DNA from: Gammaproteobacteria bacterium
GTDB lineage: Bacteria > Pseudomonadota > Gammaproteobacteria > Steroidobacterales > GCA-2729495
DNA: 64,000 nt
Direction: 5' to 3'
Assembly (NCBI GenBank): GCA_028285245.1
Contig: JANQPY010000025.1
Location: 1 to 64,000 of the forward strand
Below the pieces are notes generated by a model that had not been told where the DNA came from, made no database searches, and saw nothing but the letters and a program-made list of their open reading frames with translations. This document shows, one piece after another, positions 21,109 through 28,532 of this stretch. Numbering within the stretch: the first letter of the stretch is position 1; every line of letters starts with the position of its first letter. The position numbers and the translations under genes are program-made.

Positions 21109-23022
21109 CTATGGAGGCGGAATCGCGCAGTTAAGGTCGGGACCAAACGGGCTTACTAGCCCAGGTGGAGACGCATTGACGTTCGTGAAATCTTCCGCTT
21201 TACCCGGTAACAGGAACTGCTGAGCAGTCGCGAATTCGGTTCCAGATACGCTGGCCTCGGCCTCGATCTCCACCTCAACCCAAAGGTTATGGTCCTGCGG
21301 ATACACCACACAAACTCTGGCAATGCCCGCCCCGTCAGTGGTGACGTTCGTCTGCGCGGCACCACCGGCTACATTGCTGCAATCACCAGTTGCCGGGAAT
21401 GGAACCACTGAGGAAACGTTGCCAGCCTCGATCCTGCCGCTCCCGTTAAAGTCTTCGCCCGGATCAAGAATACCGTTGCGCGCCGTCGGCCCCGGAACCA
21501 GAGTATCCTCATCCTGGCAGGCAACGGCAGCTGGATCCCTGATCCATGCATCACCCGCGCCATTCAACACTAGCGTGCCCTTGTAATAGACCTCGGACAG
21601 CACACTAACCTGGATATTCTTGTTGGCTGACGGATTGCCATCGACGTCAGAAGCGATAACCGACCACTCGTTAGCGAACAACGACAACGAAGGCTCGAAG
21701 ATATCGTTACCGGTACCGATAACGATGAACAAATCCTCATCCGCAACGGTCAGCAAGGCTGTGTCTTCAACCGCCGGAGCGCTCTGAACGAAGGCGCGAA
21801 TGCTTACTGCATCCTGTGCGCTAGAGGTTGTGCCTGCCGTGTAGGTGGTCCGTGCCACACCCTGACTATCCGTGGTATCAGAAGCCACCGACAGCGAACC
21901 GCCGGTCGTATCGGTTAACTCGAAGACCACGACCTGGTTCTTCACCAGATTGCCTGACGGGTCTCTAACAACAGCAGAGATGGAGCTAGTCTGGCCGGTT
22001 GTGACAGTAAATGGATCCGCCTGAACGACCAGCGTGTCGGGGGTTACGGCCACAAACTCAATAGAAGCAGTAGCAACCGTACTCTCGTCGTTTACGGCAG
22101 TAATCACCGCCGGGCCAGAATTGGTAGAACTCAGATTCACAGATGCGACGCCAGCGCCATTCGTGACCGCCGAACTCGCACTCAGCGTGCCACGCGTACT
22201 GAAGAAGTTGATCGTTTCACCAACCTGAGGTACGCCGGCTTTTTCCCAGAGAATCGAAACAGGTTCCAGAACACCCAGGCTGACCTCAGCATTGGTCAGT
22301 GGCGTTGTAATCGTGAAGCTGTCATCAGACACCGTAAACTGGAAGGTTGATACAAGCCCCAGCCCGGAGATCGTCAGCGTATCAACGCCCGCCTGAGTTG
22401 CAGTGACGTTGAACTGAATCTGTCCGCCGCCGTCAGTCAGCAGGCTGCCCGCTGAAAGGGTATTGCCAAGCGCGCTGGCGATTGAAATCAGCTGGCCAGA
22501 AATGCCGGAAGACTGGCCGTCGCGCAACGAAACCGTGAAGGTGCCCTGCTGACCCTGGGCCAGAGAAGCGGGACCCGTGATGATCAGTCCGGTTCCGCTC
22601 ACAGCAATGACCAGCGTGTCCGTGATGACGTTGCCGCCATCGCCTATCGCGCTGGCACTCACAGTAATGGTGCCGTTCGCGGGATTAGTCGTCGACAGGC
22701 TGGCCGTGACAATGCCGTTGACATCAGTCGTAGTAGTCGGCACCTGCAGCGATCCGGACGAGGCGCTGAAAGTCACGACGGCATTCTCAACAACGATGTT
22801 GTTGGTATCCTGCACCCGCGCGGTGAGCGTGACGGCCTGATTCCCCTGCTGATCTGTAAGAATCTGCGTGGAACTGGCAAGCAACGTGATGGTAGCCGGC
22901 GATGTTGATCCCGTCACCGTGTTGTTGTTGCCGCCGCCAATTATCGTGTTATCGCCACTACCGCCGCAGCCCGCGATAAACGCGGTCGCAGCCAATACCC
23001 AAAAAGAAAGCAGCCTTTTCAT
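21109..23022 (-). CDS. Ig-like (Big_1) repeat lipoprotein in the pil operon
   Basis: 637 residues. Signal peptide with lipobox FIAGC, then a GGGNNN-rich linker and four to five tandem bacterial Ig-like domains of the invasin/Big_1 kind, recognisable by repeats such as VVFSASSGSL..TTDVNGIVTASLST, INFFSTRGTLS..TNGAGVASVNLSS and VVFELTDTTGGSLS..TDSQGVARTTYTA. The C-terminal about 190 residues differ: four cysteines and an acidic Ca-loop-like stretch around NGILDPGEDFNGSGRIE. It follows pilQ by 37 bases and precedes the operon terminator. Likely exposed on or held at the outer membrane; adhesin, pilus-associated factor or secretin partner are all possible. No known specific family recognised. Confidence 0.8.
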   Translation of the reverse strand: MKRLLSFWVLAATAFIAGCGGSGDNTIIGGGNNNTVTGSTSPATITLLASSTQILTDQQGNQAVTLTARVQDTNNIVVENAVVTFSASSGSLQVPTTTTDVNGIVTASLSTTNPANGTITVSASAIGDGGNVITDTLVIAVSGTGLIITGPASLAQGQQGTFTVSLRDGQSSGISGQLISIASALGNTLSAGSLLTDGGGQIQFNVTATQAGVDTLTISGLGLVSTFQFTVSDDSFTITTPLTNAEVSLGVLEPVSILWEKAGVPQVGETINFFSTRGTLSASSAVTNGAGVASVNLSSTNSGPAVITAVNDESTVATASIEFVAVTPDTLVVQADPFTVTTGQTSSISAVVRDPSGNLVKNQVVVFELTDTTGGSLSVASDTTDSQGVARTTYTAGTTSSAQDAVSIRAFVQSAPAVEDTALLTVADEDLFIVIGTGNDIFEPSLSLFANEWSVIASDVDGNPSANKNIQVSVLSEVYYKGTLVLNGAGDAWIRDPAAVACQDEDTLVPGPTARNGILDPGEDFNGSGRIEAGNVSSVVPFPATGDCSNVAGGAAQTNVTTDGAGIARVCVVYPQDHNLWVEVEIEAEASVSGTEFATAQQFLLPGKAEDFTNVNASPPGLVSPFGPDLNCAIPPP

Positions 23023-23059: not shown

Positions 23060-25261
23060 TTAATAAATGCTCGAGCCTTCTTTTAGTATTTTCGGCGTCA
23101 CAAAAATCAACAGTTCCGACTTGTCCGTCATGATGCTGCTGGACCGGAACAGTGCACCGATGCCCGGAAGATCACCCAGGTACGGAACCTTGGTGTAGAT
23201 CTCCTGCTGCTCGGTTTCATAAATGCCGCCAAGCACGACCGTCTGGCCGTTGTTCACCAGCACCTGAGTTTCTACCGAACGCGTATCGATACTTGGTACC
23301 TGACCGCCGCGTTCCGTGGTGATGACCTCACCCACCGTGTCCTGCGCAACGAGCAGGTCCATGATGATGCGATCATCAGGCGTGATCTGTGGCGTGACGG
23401 TAAGACTCAGTGCGGCTTCCTTAAACTGCGTGGTGGTCGCACCACTGGAAGACGCCTCCTGATAGGGAATTTCCACACCCTGCTTGATCACAGCCTCTTT
23501 GCTATTGGCCGTGATCACGCGCGGTGACGAAATCACCTCACCGCGGCCTTCGGCCTGCAGCGCAGATAGCTCAAGGTCAACCAGGTAGTCGTTGCCCAGT
23601 ATGGCCACCGCGAGCTGACCAGCAGGATTAGCCACGGGCAGATTCACGTTGAAGCGATCGTCGAGCGTCGGCAACGTCACAGGGAACGGCGAGCCGGTAT
23701 TGGTCAGGTTGTCCACCGCGGACCCCGAAATCACGGAGTTGCCCTCGGCCGAGCCGGTGGTGGAAACCAGGCCGTTGCTGCCGTTCTCACTAACGTAGGT
23801 CGCGCCCCAGCGAACTCCCAGGTCACGATTAAAGTTGTCGCTGACCACCACGATGCGGGTTTCAATCAGCACCTGACGCACCGGGATGTCGAGCGTGCTC
23901 ACCAGGCGGCGAATGTCGTCAATGCGCTCGGCAGTTTCCTGCAGCAGCAGCGTATTGGTCCGCTCGTCGATACCGACAGAACCGCGATCCGACAACAGTG
24001 CGTTGCCGCCGCTGCCGGAGATCAGATCGGCCAGGTCTGCCGCCTTGGCGTAGTTCACCTGCAGGTATTCAGTCTGCAGCGGCTCGAGCTCTTCGATTTC
24101 CTGGCGGGATTCGAGGTCTGCCAGCTCGCGCGCGGCGATTTCGTCAGCCGGCGCCACGATGATTACGTTACCGTTCTCGCGCAGGTCTAGCCCACGTGCC
24201 GCCAGCACGATATCGAGCGCCTGATCCCAGGGCACATTCTTCAGGCGCAGCGTGACATTGCCCTGCACCGTATCGGAAACCACGATGTTCCGGCCGCTGA
24301 CATCAGCCAGTAACTGCAGCACCGCCCGTGTCTCGATATCCTGGAAGTTCAGCGTCAGTCGCTCACCCGTGTATTCGCGATCCGGGCTAAACAACCGCGG
24401 CTTGTCGCTCTGCTGCTCTTCAACAACCTCAGCGACCTCCAGTGTGAACACGTTGTCTGACTGGTAGGCGAGTTCTTCAAAGTTGCCCGAAGCGGCAACA
24501 ACGATGCGCGCATCGTTACCGACCCGCAGGATGTCCACCGTGTTAACCGGCGTAGCGAAATCCAGCACGTCCAAACGCTTGGTCAGACTGTCGGCAACCT
24601 TGGCACCGGCGAAATTCAGTATGACGCTGCTGCCTTCCTGCCTGACATCGACCGGAGTGCCAGCCTCGGTCAGCGTCACGATGATGCGGCCGGCACCCGT
24701 CTCGGAGCGCCGGAAGTCCACGTCAGCAATAGCGCGTCCATCGACTTCAGCCATGGCGCTCTGACTGGCGCCGGCAGAGGCCGTCGCCGCGAAAGTGGTG
24801 ACGTCGGCAGCACCCGAAGCCGCTGCGGACTCAAGCGTTACAACAATCTCGTTACCGCTGACGCTGGTGCTGTAGGGCACCATCTGATCAAGATTCAGGA
24901 CCACACGTGTGCGCCCGCTGGCCTCGGCCGCAAGCACCGTATCCAGTACGCCAACGCCCACGTCCTTGCGGCGAGAAGCAAGCCCGAGGGATGTGTCACG
25001 CAAATCCAGCGAGATGCGCGCCGGGCTATCGATGGTAAAGGCGAGCGGCTCAGCAGCCGGCTGCGCCATGATCAGGCGTAGCTCAATGCGATTGCCCGGC
25101 AGGGCTTGCACTTGCACATCCTGCAGGCTGTTGCCGGAGTCCTGGGCCAACGCAGTGCCCGGCATAGCCAGGACCAGCGCAAGAGTGGCCACGACCAACG
25201 CGAACACGGCGCGAAGGTATCGCCCCGCTATCAGCGTCTGGATCGACCTAGCTTTAGTCAT
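23060..25261 (-). CDS. pilQ: Type IV pilus secretin
   Basis: 733 residues. Outer-membrane pore through which the pilus passes. Order: signal peptide ending ALAQ, two AMIN domains (about 45-125 and 150-250, presumed peptidoglycan binding), a secretin/TonB short N-terminal domain (LNFQDIETRAVLQLLADVSG onward, about 305-370), a NolW/N1 domain (TEYLQVNYAKAADLADLI), and the secretin core from VLIETRIVVVSDNFNRDLGVRWG to ELLIFVTPKIL. ATG at 25261 is preferred over an upstream TTG (25279) because GGGAG lies before it. 58 bases after pilP. Confidence 0.96.
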   Translation of the reverse strand: MTKARSIQTLIAGRYLRAVFALVVATLALVLAMPGTALAQDSGNSLQDVQVQALPGNRIELRLIMAQPAAEPLAFTIDSPARISLDLRDTSLGLASRRKDVGVGVLDTVLAAEASGRTRVVLNLDQMVPYSTSVSGNEIVVTLESAAASGAADVTTFAATASAGASQSAMAEVDGRAIADVDFRRSETGAGRIIVTLTEAGTPVDVRQEGSSVILNFAGAKVADSLTKRLDVLDFATPVNTVDILRVGNDARIVVAASGNFEELAYQSDNVFTLEVAEVVEEQQSDKPRLFSPDREYTGERLTLNFQDIETRAVLQLLADVSGRNIVVSDTVQGNVTLRLKNVPWDQALDIVLAARGLDLRENGNVIIVAPADEIAARELADLESRQEIEELEPLQTEYLQVNYAKAADLADLISGSGGNALLSDRGSVGIDERTNTLLLQETAERIDDIRRLVSTLDIPVRQVLIETRIVVVSDNFNRDLGVRWGATYVSENGSNGLVSTTGSAEGNSVISGSAVDNLTNTGSPFPVTLPTLDDRFNVNLPVANPAGQLAVAILGNDYLVDLELSALQAEGRGEVISSPRVITANSKEAVIKQGVEIPYQEASSSGATTTQFKEAALSLTVTPQITPDDRIIMDLLVAQDTVGEVITTERGGQVPSIDTRSVETQVLVNNGQTVVLGGIYETEQQEIYTKVPYLGDLPGIGALFRSSSIMTDKSELLIFVTPKILKEGSSIY

Positions 25262-25319
25262 CGTCAAGTACTCCCACAAACTCCCTCAAGCGATAACGCC
25301 TAGCCAGCATCATCACCGC

Positions 25320-25829
25320 TCAGTCCAGGCCAATGGCCGCGGACCGCGTAAAGAAACCGCCGATGCCATCGGGCACCAGCTCAGCAACCTCAATTTCCGC
25401 CTCGCTTACCGCCGCGATGCGGCCTTCGTTCTGGCCCACGTAGTTGCCGGGCAACACGCGATGCACCAGTCCATCCTGCGTCTGCAACAGCCCGTAGGTC
25501 CGCCCGTCGCGCTCCAGCGTGCCAACCATCTTTAGCGTGTCCAGCGGAAACTGTTCCAGGTATTCCTTGGGTCGGTTGATTTCCGGCCGTGGCCCGGAGC
25601 CCTGCCCGCGGGCCGGCGGACTGTCGGCAACAAACGGAGAACGGCGGCCAGCGGCCTCATAGGTAAACGTTTCGTAAGGCTTGATCTGAGGGAGGGGCTC
25701 AATGCGGCCACCGGGACGCGCCTTCACCCCATCTATATAGGCATCCAAATCGTCCATGTCGCCGCCGCAGCCAGCCAACAGCAACGCCGGTACGAGAATC
25801 AACACAACTTTCAATGAGAACTTATTCAT
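25320..25829 (-). CDS. pilP: Type IV pilus assembly lipoprotein PilP
   Basis: 169 residues. Inner-membrane-anchored lipoprotein that links the PilNO complex to PilQ. Seen: signal peptide with lipobox LLAGC, a flexible proline-rich N-terminal part (RIEPLPQIKPYETFTYEA, then RRSPF), and the beta-sandwich domain with YLEQFPLDTLKMVGTL, GLLQTQDGLVHRVLPGNYVGQNEGRI. Order pilM-N-O-P-Q is canonical. Confidence 0.95.
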   Translation of the reverse strand: MNKFSLKVVLILVPALLLAGCGGDMDDLDAYIDGVKARPGGRIEPLPQIKPYETFTYEAAGRRSPFVADSPPARGQGSGPRPEINRPKEYLEQFPLDTLKMVGTLERDGRTYGLLQTQDGLVHRVLPGNYVGQNEGRIAAVSEAEIEVAELVPDGIGGFFTRSAAIGLD

Positions 25830-25841
25830 GAGCGTGGTGCG

Positions 25842-26459
25842 TCAGCCGGCGTCTTCCAGTTCCGCTTCCTCGTCGAGATAGCGGTACGTCTTGGCAGTAA
25901 CGTTGAGAACCAGAGACTCGCCGCTATCCGCGTCGCGCGGTTGAATCTCCAGATCGTGCAAGGTCACGATACGCGGCAAGGCCGCAATATCGCTGACGAA
26001 CTGCCCAAATTCGTGGTATCGGCCCTGCAGCCGTATCTTTATCGGTTTCTCGGCATAGAAATCCTTGCGGATCTCATCCTGCGGCTGGAACAGCTCTTCC
26101 TGGAGACCTGCCGCTAACCCGGTCTGCGAGATATCAACGAGCAGGTTGGGGATTTCTGTTCGCCCCGGCAGCTGGCGCAGCATGGTGCCAAAGGAACTCT
26201 CGATCTCATCGAGCTGCTCTTTGTACGCGTCAAAGTTAGCGGCTTTGCGCTGCTTGTTCTCGAAAGATTGCTTCAGATCGCGCTCTTCACTTTCGGCCCG
26301 CTCGAGTACCGGCATCTGCTGCTTGTACAGCAGAAAGTAAAACCCAGCCCCACTGGCAACGACAAAAAACAGGGCCACAAATAGAATGTGGAAAATCTGG
26401 GGCCAGCGCCCAATATCGTTGAAATCCAGGTTGCGGAGTTGCTCAATGAAATCGTTCAT
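25842..26459 (-). CDS. pilO: Type IV pilus alignment protein PilO
   Basis: 205 residues. Forms heterodimers with PilN and binds PilP. Seen: cytoplasmic start with QLRNLDFNDIGRWP, one membrane span (about 22-43, FHILFVALFFVVASGAGFYF), a coiled coil (about 45-95), and the periplasmic ferredoxin-like domain with LPGRTEIPNLLVDISQTGLAAGL and IRLQGRYHEFGQFVSDIAALPRIV. Its ATG overlaps the pilN stop by four bases. Confidence 0.95.
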   Translation of the reverse strand: MNDFIEQLRNLDFNDIGRWPQIFHILFVALFFVVASGAGFYFLLYKQQMPVLERAESEERDLKQSFENKQRKAANFDAYKEQLDEIESSFGTMLRQLPGRTEIPNLLVDISQTGLAAGLQEELFQPQDEIRKDFYAEKPIKIRLQGRYHEFGQFVSDIAALPRIVTLHDLEIQPRDADSGESLVLNVTAKTYRYLDEEAELEDAG

Positions 26460-27037
26460 TGCAGCCCCTCCTCGTCGTCTTCATCCACCTTGGATACCTG
26501 GCGGGCAAAAACCTTGAATTCGCTGGCGCGGGAAGTCTCGCCGGAACGCGAGGTCTTAACCTCGACCACCTCAAGATCAGGATTACCAAGCCATTCGGAT
26601 TTGTCGATGTTGCGCATCAACGCCGAAACGCGGGTATTGGACTCTGCAGCGCCGATAATCTCGAGTCGCTGGCCGGTTTGATTGACTTCCTGCAGGTAAA
26701 CGCCGTCCGGCAATGTTTCCACCAGCTCATCAACAACACGCACGATGCCGGGGCGACTACGCTGAAGCTGTTCGATGATGTCCATGCGTGCCAGAAGACG
26801 CTCTTTCTTTTCCTCCAGATCGATGATTTCTTCGATCCGCAGGTTGAGCTTCTTGATCTCCTCATCGAGACGCGCGTTGCGATCGTTTTGATGATTGATC
26901 ACGCTCTGAAAGGCAAAGTAGCCGAGCAAAAGAAACACGCCGGCACCCAAAGCAGCACCACCGAGCGCCACGAAGAACTGGTTCCGGCGCTGCGTACGCT
27001 GTTCTTCGCGCCACGGCAGCAGGTTAATGCGAGGCAT
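26456..27037 (-). CDS. pilN: Type IV pilus alignment protein PilN
   Basis: 193 residues. Starts with the conserved INLLPWRE motif that inserts into a groove of PilM; then a membrane span (about 22-42), a coiled coil rich in E/K/R (about 45-95) and a periplasmic domain (RPGIVRVVDELVETLPDGVYLQEV..). The C-terminal tail is acidic. One base separates it from pilM. Confidence 0.95.
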   Translation of the reverse strand: MPRINLLPWREEQRTQRRNQFFVALGGAALGAGVFLLLGYFAFQSVINHQNDRNARLDEEIKKLNLRIEEIIDLEEKKERLLARMDIIEQLQRSRPGIVRVVDELVETLPDGVYLQEVNQTGQRLEIIGAAESNTRVSALMRNIDKSEWLGNPDLEVVEVKTSRSGETSRASEFKVFARQVSKVDEDDEEGLQ

Positions 27038-27038
27038 A

Positions 27039-28100
27039 TCAGTCGAAACTCCGTAGCGCGAGGCCGCAGGCAGTCAGCAGTGCAGTGGCATCCTTGCTCA
27101 CGCCCTGAGACTTGGCCCGCGAGGAAACTTTCATATGGCCCAGAGGATCACCGATTTCCGTGGGAATCCCTACCTTGCTGGAAATAACGTCTGCGACGCC
27201 GGGAATATTCGCGCAGCCACCGCACACCAAAATCTGGTCCGGCTGCTCGCGGCCACCGCCCGACGCCAGAAAGAACTGCAGCGACCGGCTGACCTGCTGA
27301 GTCATGTCATCCGTAAAGGGATCCAATACTTCCGGCTGGTAGTTGCTCGGTAAGCCGCCTTCTTTCTTTGCGCGACCCGCGTCTTCCAGGCTAAGCCCGT
27401 AGGTGCGCATGATTTCCTCGGTTAACTGCTGGCCACCGAACGAAAAATCACGCGTGTAAATAACCCGCATGTCTTGCAGCACGCTGAACGTTGTATTGCT
27501 CGCGCCGAAGTCCACGACGGCAATCAGGTGATCCATGCCGCCGTCGGGCATCTGGTGGGCAAGCAACTGGCAGGCGTTCTCCAGTGCGAACGCCTCAACA
27601 TCTACCACTCTCGCGGTCAGTCCCGCTGCGGCTACGGCCGCCTTGCGCTGATCGACGTTCTCGGTACGCGTAGCAACGAGCAAGACATCATTCATGTCCG
27701 GATCGTTGGCACTCGCACCCAACACTTCGAAATCGAAACTCACCTCTTCCATTGGGAAGGGGATGTACTGATCGGCCTGGATTTCCACCTGGCCCTCAAG
27801 TTCATTCGGGCCCAGACTGCGTGGCAGCTGAATGACCTTCGTGATCGCGGCGTCACCGCTGATTGCAATGGCGACTTCCTCAGCCGCTGAACCAGAACGC
27901 TTAACTGCCCGGCGTATTGCCTCGCCTACCGCATCGGCATCGACGATGGTTTTCTCGCTGATGGAATTGGGCGGCGTGGGCTCCGCGGAGTAACACTCAG
28001 CACGAAAGGAGCGGCCGCTTTGCACAAGCTCAATGAGCTTGATCGACGACGTAGTTATGTCAAGACCGATTAGCGGCTTGGAACGTGACGCGAATAGCAC
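27039..28100 (-). CDS. pilM: Type IV pilus actin-like ATPase PilM
   Basis: 353 residues. Cytoplasmic actin-like protein binding the PilN tail, linking the inner-membrane ring to the motor. Seen: phosphate-1 LIGLDITTSSIKLIEL, EEVAIAISGDAAITKVI, the PMEEVSFDFEVLG segment, phosphate-2 AVVDFGASNTTFSVL and the adenosine motif ILVCGGCANIPGV. The start is GTG at 28100 with AAGGGA about 7 bases upstream. First gene of the operon behind a roughly 370-base leader that contains the riboswitch described separately. Confidence 0.95.
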   Translation of the reverse strand: MLFASRSKPLIGLDITTSSIKLIELVQSGRSFRAECYSAEPTPPNSISEKTIVDADAVGEAIRRAVKRSGSAAEEVAIAISGDAAITKVIQLPRSLGPNELEGQVEIQADQYIPFPMEEVSFDFEVLGASANDPDMNDVLLVATRTENVDQRKAAVAAAGLTARVVDVEAFALENACQLLAHQMPDGGMDHLIAVVDFGASNTTFSVLQDMRVIYTRDFSFGGQQLTEEIMRTYGLSLEDAGRAKKEGGLPSNYQPEVLDPFTDDMTQQVSRSLQFFLASGGGREQPDQILVCGGCANIPGVADVISSKVGIPTEIGDPLGHMKVSSRAKSQGVSKDATALLTACGLALRSFD

Positions 28101-28220
28101 GTGTTTTCCCTTCTAAGTCGGCAACTTGCGAAACATTGTCGCACGACATGTTAGCTACCTAATTTAACTATATATCTCGGTCTAGTGAAAGTACTGTGGA
28201 ACGGGTCTCAAATCCGCCAC

Positions 28221-28241
28221 AAAAAGGCTGCGTTTGCAGCC
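28221..28241 (-). terminator. Second terminator hairpin in the pil leader
   Basis: Minus strand GGCTGC-AAAC-GCAGCC (28226-28241) followed by UUUUU (28221-28225). A compact intrinsic terminator about 110 bases past the aptamer and 120 bases before pilM. No gene ends nearby on this strand, so its natural role is conditional termination of the pil transcript. Confidence 0.75.
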
Positions 28242-28280
28242 GCTTTGGACAGCTACGCACCGCGCTACTGCGCCAAATCA

Positions 28281-28304
28281 GAAGAAAAAGTCGCCGAACG
28301 GCAC
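28281..28304 (-). terminator. First terminator-like hairpin in the pil leader
   Basis: Minus strand GTGCC-GTTC-GGCGAC (28290-28304), a short stem with one bulged G, followed by CUUUUUCUUC (28281-28290). Weaker than the hairpin at 28221. It sits about 45 bases after the aptamer. Confidence 0.55.
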
Positions 28305-28344
28305 CTGCAAGACAGGAGGATATGACAAGCAGCGGGCGCACGGC

Positions 28345-28475
28345 CCGACTGGTTGGCAGCCCCGCTGTCTTAGGAACCGCTCCGGCTGGCCCGTCTTCAA
28401 CAGACGCCGAAGCACCCCATATTCCCTTAGACCGGTGGCTTTGCGCCCCCGCCTTTCAACGGGTATGCCCAAAAA
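28345..28475 (-). promoter_or_regulatory. Probable c-di-GMP-I (GEMM-I) riboswitch aptamer
   Basis: The minus strand carries the GEMM-I hallmarks in order: GGGCATACCC (28461-28470), a stem CCCGTT/GGCGGG capped by GAAA, then GGCGCAAAGCC (28437-28447), ACCGGTCTAAGGG, a long side arm (28370-28425) with nested stems GCTTCGGC/GCCGGAGC and CGTCT/AGACG, and a 3' part CCTAAGACAGCGGGGCTGCC (28354-28373). The GAAA loop, the GCAAAGCC core and the GCGGGG block correspond to the tetraloop, ligand-pocket and receptor parts of known aptamers. The Gs where specificity for c-di-GMP over cAMP-GMP is set are retained. Followed by two terminator hairpins and pilM. Identified by eye; no covariance score. Confidence 0.85.
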
Positions 28476-28479
28476 CCGC

Positions 28480-28510
28480 CGCCAATATGCATAATCGCCC
28501 CTTCCAAGGC
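28480..28510. promoter_or_regulatory. Possible overlapping divergent promoters for pil leader and ponA
   Basis: An AT-rich patch around the palindrome TATGCATA (28486-28493). Plus strand offers CATAAT (28490-28495) as a -10 for ponA. Minus strand offers TTGCCT, 17 bases, CATATT as a promoter upstream of the riboswitch. Matches are only moderate and the -35 for ponA is poor. Confidence 0.35.
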
Positions 28511-28532
28511 AAGGGAATGTCTTACGGTTTCT

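Follow-up and report, generated by a model that had tools for sequence, protein, structure and literature searches.

The window, i.e., the whole stretch of 64,000 nucleotides analysed here, carries on its minus strand the operon pilMNOPQ, which encodes the alignment complex and the secretin of type IV pili. The leader of this operon holds a c-di-GMP-I aptamer followed by a candidate anti-aptamer strand, terminator-like hairpins and a putative promoter (P2), and another putative promoter (P1) precedes the aptamer. The features are, by coordinate:

23060–25279 (−), pilQ secretin (TIGR02515, 526.8 bits)
25320–25829 (−), pilP (PF04351)
25842–26459 (−), pilO (PF04350)
26456–27037 (−), pilN (PF05137)
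27039–28100 (−), pilM (TIGR01175, 364 bits; PF11104)
28162–28174 (−), TATATAGTTAAAT, putative P2 promoter core, 74 nt upstream of the start of pilM
28197–28210 (−), place of the CRP/Vfr site, GTGA-N6-TCAC in relatives, degenerate in the window (2 of 8 positions)
28221–28241 (−), intrinsic terminator GGCTGC-AAAC-GCAGCC-TTTTT, hairpin 28241–28226 (terminator scan)
28279–28304 (−), weak terminator-like hairpin GTGCCGTTCGGCGAC-TTTTT (fold probabilities)
28288–28326 (−), G-poor pyrimidine-rich element, possible rut-like Rho entry site (enrichment)
28309–28320 (−), predicted anti-aptamer strand UCCUCCUGUCUU (constrained folding and partner swapping)
28352–28479 (−), c-di-GMP-I (GEMM-I) aptamer (Rfam; covariation, n = 14 sequences; residue counts, n = 29)
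28484–28512 (−), putative P1 promoter for the riboswitch transcript: TTGCCT (28512–28507), 17 nt, CATATT (28489–28484)
from 28533 (+), ponA, divergent from pilM

Directly after pilQ, positions 21109–23022 (−) encode a lipoprotein-like protein with Big_1/invasin D3 Ig-like repeats.

The c-di-GMP-I aptamer and its conservation

In a cmscan search of the whole window, RF01051 (c-di-GMP-I) is the sole Rfam match above gathering score. The match at 28352–28479 (−) covers the full model (positions 1–87) with 67.7 bits against a gathering threshold of 35 bits (E 4e-11), and is located 251 nt upstream of pilM. The c-di-GMP-I riboswitch aptamer claimed in a preliminary description of this DNA is thereby confirmed, and the GEMM-I landmarks quoted there are all found in the order given. 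Its location in the pilM leader, between ponA and pilM, was also correct with respect to the flanking genes, and the place is conserved; the site given earlier, 28345–28475, holds, but its ends are 4–7 bases off. A role of the riboswitch in controlling ponA is ruled out, as the aptamer is on the wrong strand.

Aligned to Vc2, the ligand contacts G20, A47 and C92 correspond to 28469, 28442 and 28356, respectively, and are retained in the window, as they are in 21 of 21 pilM aptamers. G20 in all 21 rules out the cGAMP-sensing GEMM-I subtype (A20), and the three residues together favor c-di-GMP over cGAMP as the predicted ligand. Position 18 (28471), which is listed as a contact nucleotide in 3IRW (PMC7288161), is U and not A in the window, and is U in 19 of the 21 pilM aptamers. 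An A occupies this position in all four other c-di-GMP-I aptamers of the window's genome, and in nearly all best-scoring non-pilM aptamers of relatives. A18 is usual, not diagnostic, and U18 leaves membership of RF01051 intact. The genome's other c-di-GMP-I RNAs lie before a redoxin operon that also has TPR proteins, before the gene for a secreted Kelch-like protein, and before two genes whose products have VPLPA-CTERM-like tails. The aptamers before the latter two, which are paralogues of each other, are at L004 1501–1615 and L005 1501–1616 (C40 and C20 of the same genome); the one in L005 is a match to the GGC subtype RF03167, and L004 aligns closely with it. Three genomes of the same order (G042, G045 and G056) have 11–21 c-di-GMP-I matches each, which is unusually many.

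Comparison with related pilM leaders, put forward as a check in the preliminary description, agrees with the assignment: among 80 loci encoding a PilM relative, scored with our own model R1, the same aptamer is present with a strong score at the same place before pilM in 20 (89–125 bits) and with a weak score in four (27–53 bits), and its helices covary. It precedes pilM in 5 of 5 genomes of the window's genus. In an alignment of 14 aptamers, standard pairs account for 94.5% of the pair cells, compared with a paired share of only 32–48% in slid controls, and two-sided changes are found at 8 pairs, vs a shuffled mean of 4.2 and 2–5 in slid controls. Of the aptamer helices, P2 (capped by a GAAA loop of the GNRA type) and P3 are backed by covariation. 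Ligand residues and helices are intact in the window and 20 relatives while the spacer beyond the aptamer has diverged, which argues for purifying selection on the aptamer. Judged by sequence, the RNA before pilM is a genuine c-di-GMP-I aptamer, and a predicted c-di-GMP sensor, in a group of uncultured gammaproteobacteria.

On the PilM tree, the Woeseiaceae without aptamer form one large clade, the aptamer has decayed in L064, in L030, L034 and L041, and in L025, and it is lost in L020 and L021; these cases of decay and loss look like separate events. Decayed or diverged aptamers before pilM are found at L041 4649–4757, L034 400–507, L064 4682–4806 and L025 4588–4711. In L041 and L034, much of P3 is retained via compensating changes and the bases after A47 are altered, so a changed ligand is possible there.

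The window's genome encodes 13 GGDEF domains, which could supply c-di-GMP, and pilus-type ATPases, and because two MshEN c-di-GMP-binding domains occur in frames of such ATPases, post-translational action of c-di-GMP on pili is also probable. A T2SSE-type ATPase frame at G000:C40:263091-264158 has one TAG inside.

The spacer between aptamer and pilM

A pyrimidine-rich, G-poor stretch is enriched 26–64 nt 3′ of the aptamer (z 5.5; 24 leaders). In the window, CUGUCUU (28315–28309) pairs with the aptamer 3′-strand AAGACAG (28371–28365), and for transcripts ending at 28308–28260 this helix has a probability of 0.9–0.97 in the ligand-free state and 0 with the aptamer locked. Over the same transcript ends, the element is unpaired to about 0.10 with the aptamer free and about 0.6 with it locked. 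Past 28256 the free and locked states converge and the effect is gone, so anti-aptamer pairing would be effective only while the polymerase is nearby.

At 100 nt, locking the aptamer frees the element in 20 of 21 leaders, with the mean unpaired fraction changing from 0.24 to 0.43; in the window the element is unchanged by the lock at this transcript length, and its own shuffle score is z −0.59. Across leaders the gain exceeds that of segment shuffles (mean z 1.54, sem 0.30), shuffling removing much of it. Cognate aptamer–element pairs beat swapped partners by 1.2 kcal/mol (permutation p 0.0014), and swaps within a clade have pairing energies intermediate between cognate and other swaps. The signal arises only in these constrained-fold and partner-swap tests and not in plain duplex energy, where the last 22 aptamer bases against the next 60 nt give no excess over shuffles (mean z −0.07). 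Anti-aptamer pairing is thus supported by computation, and according to the folding models bound ligand should free the pyrimidine element. An anti-Shine–Dalgarno role of the element on the pilM Shine–Dalgarno sequence was rejected, as pairing shows no excess over shuffles (mean z −0.18).

Beyond the aptamer, the scanner reports one terminator, the hairpin at 28241–28226, which in folding reaches p 0.97–0.99 with the aptamer free or locked alike. The other four species of the genus lack it, as do nearly all relatives, and the leaders have no conserved intrinsic terminator. For GTGCCGTTCGGCGAC-TTTTT (28304–28279), the inner-stem probability is 0.2–0.4 for transcripts ending at 28286–28274, with or without the aptamer lock. 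Where the preliminary description had several intrinsic terminator hairpins, the one at 28241–28226 is convincing but the other is only a weak stem. Attenuation via intrinsic terminators, implied there, is not borne out, since the good one occurs in a single species and forms independently of the aptamer state; a conserved, aptamer-dependent terminator as expression platform is unsupported for the same reasons.

Putative promoters P1 and P2

The elements TTGCC(T) and CATATT, with 17 nt spacing, precede the aptamer in relatives possessing it, with CATCCT replacing CATATT in some, and the RNA start predicted from P1 (~28477) corresponds to the aptamer 5′ end. The promoter scan gave no sigma-70 consensus match for P1. 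We infer from such sequence features that P1 is the riboswitch promoter. Its GATTATGCAT part is also present in aptamer-less leaders, e.g., L044, and may serve the divergent ponA.

The P2 motif TATATRGTTAAAT is found 71–76 nt before pilM in most of 74 relatives, with or without aptamer, and is more conserved than the aptamer itself. As the putative P2 core (28174–28162) sits downstream of the aptamer and the terminator, and hence of the whole riboswitch, a riboswitch-independent pilM mRNA is expected. With this more widely conserved putative promoter between sensor and genes, the riboswitch probably controls only part of the expression. It cannot be concluded, as proposed earlier, that the number of pilus machines is set by c-di-GMP, since P2 would bypass the riboswitch. 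The preliminary description had held that pilM transcripts starting only downstream of 28221 would speak against riboswitch control; the position of P2 comes near to this, although sole use of P2 is not implied.

In most relatives, GTGA-N6-TCAC is located 36 (or 35) bp upstream of the P2 core, and if TATATA is the −10 element, its center would be at −41.5, as in class II CRP promoters. With the offset held fixed, the site matches at 8 of 8 positions in 49 of 75 sequences and at 7 of 8 in 5, and at all 8 in 0 of 1,500 shuffles, where the 75 sequences are kin and hence do not count as independent events. In the window and near relatives the site is lost (2–3 of 8) and the −10-like core is kept. 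Among the proteins of the window's genome is a CRP equivalog scoring 314 bits against a cut-off of 266. The same operon is under a CRP-family activator in Pseudomonas aeruginosa, where the pilMNOPQ promoter depends on Vfr-cAMP (PMC12533971). The sequence CACAGTACTTT at 28198–28188 (−), just upstream of P2, is conserved in most species of the genus; it lies about where relatives carry the CRP site, and could be the site of another activator.

Proposed control of pilMNOPQ by c-di-GMP

In Clostridioides difficile, a c-di-GMP-II riboswitch precedes type IV pilus genes; c-di-GMP control of pilus genes is shared with the present system, but the aptamer class is unrelated and the operon different. 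We know of no c-di-GMP riboswitch upstream of the P. aeruginosa pilMNOPQ promoter. In the literature searched, with subscription papers mostly outside, no report was found of c-di-GMP-I before pilM in gammaproteobacteria. A GEMM-I RNA before pilM is already known from Geobacter, and the two-promoter setting is what is unusual here.

We see about an even chance that the leader combines two inputs, a P1 aptamer with anti-aptamer and Rho-favored OFF control, and a riboswitch-independent P2. The inputs would be arranged in tandem, with the distal P1 transcript beginning at the aptamer 5′ end. In unliganded RNA, with the polymerase still in the leader, the aptamer 3′ strand would pair with the pyrimidine-rich element some 30–60 nt downstream, while with c-di-GMP bound the aptamer would stay closed and the element single-stranded. 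The exposed C/U-rich, G-poor element would then most likely favor Rho-dependent termination of the P1 transcript, i.e., OFF, assisted in the window's species by the intrinsic terminator; both the involvement of Rho and the direction of the switch are what we infer. The proximal P2, class II CRP/Vfr (cAMP)-like in most relatives, would evade the riboswitch, and c-di-GMP would tune the P1 share alone of pilMNOPQ expression. Both promoters are presumably active.

The opposite direction, in which c-di-GMP allows read-through or translation of the P1 transcript and thus more pilus machines on surfaces, appears possible but on the whole unlikely. An ON switch at high c-di-GMP would fit, by analogy, the pilM riboswitch of Geobacter metallireducens, a GEMM-I RNA that responds to cGAMP and is ON (PMC9262584), as well as Vibrio cholerae Vc1, and pili are usually wanted at high c-di-GMP. 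The Geobacter RNA has the same aptamer fold and target operon as the window, but is of the cGAMP subtype, and one strand of its terminator is in direct competition with the aptamer (PMC9262584). The window is gammaproteobacterial, with G20, without a conserved-terminator platform, and with a second promoter following; none of its strands is common to the aptamer and a conserved terminator, nor is anti-Shine–Dalgarno pairing seen. Vc1 is closer in the latter respect, being a c-di-GMP-I RNA with no apparent terminator or anti-Shine–Dalgarno sequence before its gene, but the target is another one, gbpA, and its ON direction has been shown by experiment (PMC4744006). A simple attenuator, where the aptamer toggles the terminator at 28241–28226 and thereby the whole operon, is improbable: one good terminator does sit between aptamer and pilM, but its restriction to one species, its formation with or without a folded aptamer, and the location of P2 downstream of it all argue against such a switch. 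Most improbable among these readings is a vestigial aptamer that still folds while P2 supplies the pilM mRNA, so that the riboswitch effect is small. In several lineages the aptamer has decayed independently and P2 has been retained, which would agree with this, and Bacillus thuringiensis Bc1, a c-di-GMP-I RNA with a long platform as in the window, gives no response in cells (PMC11218506). Bc1 has two terminators and is reported to be common and conserved throughout the B. cereus group; here there is one good terminator, in one species. The integrity of ligand residues and helices in the window and 20 relatives, despite a diverged spacer, is difficult to reconcile with an aptamer that has lost its role.

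Beyond the two-input model, we tentatively suggest, and with considerable doubt, that the pilM RNAs form a distinct riboswitch lineage (U18, anti-aptamer, no conserved terminator). Rho would here be gated by c-di-GMP at P1 and P2 driven by cAMP-CRP, individual lineages having dropped either input. Two second messengers would in that case meet on one pilus operon. If the two-input model is correct, c-di-GMP would act at the RNA level on the amount of alignment complex and secretin, with cAMP acting on the same pilus components at the DNA level in most relatives. The leaders, with both inputs, one input or a decayed aptamer, would then constitute a natural series for tracing the evolution of dual control, and would serve, like Vc1, for testing how a c-di-GMP-I switch operates without a conserved terminator.
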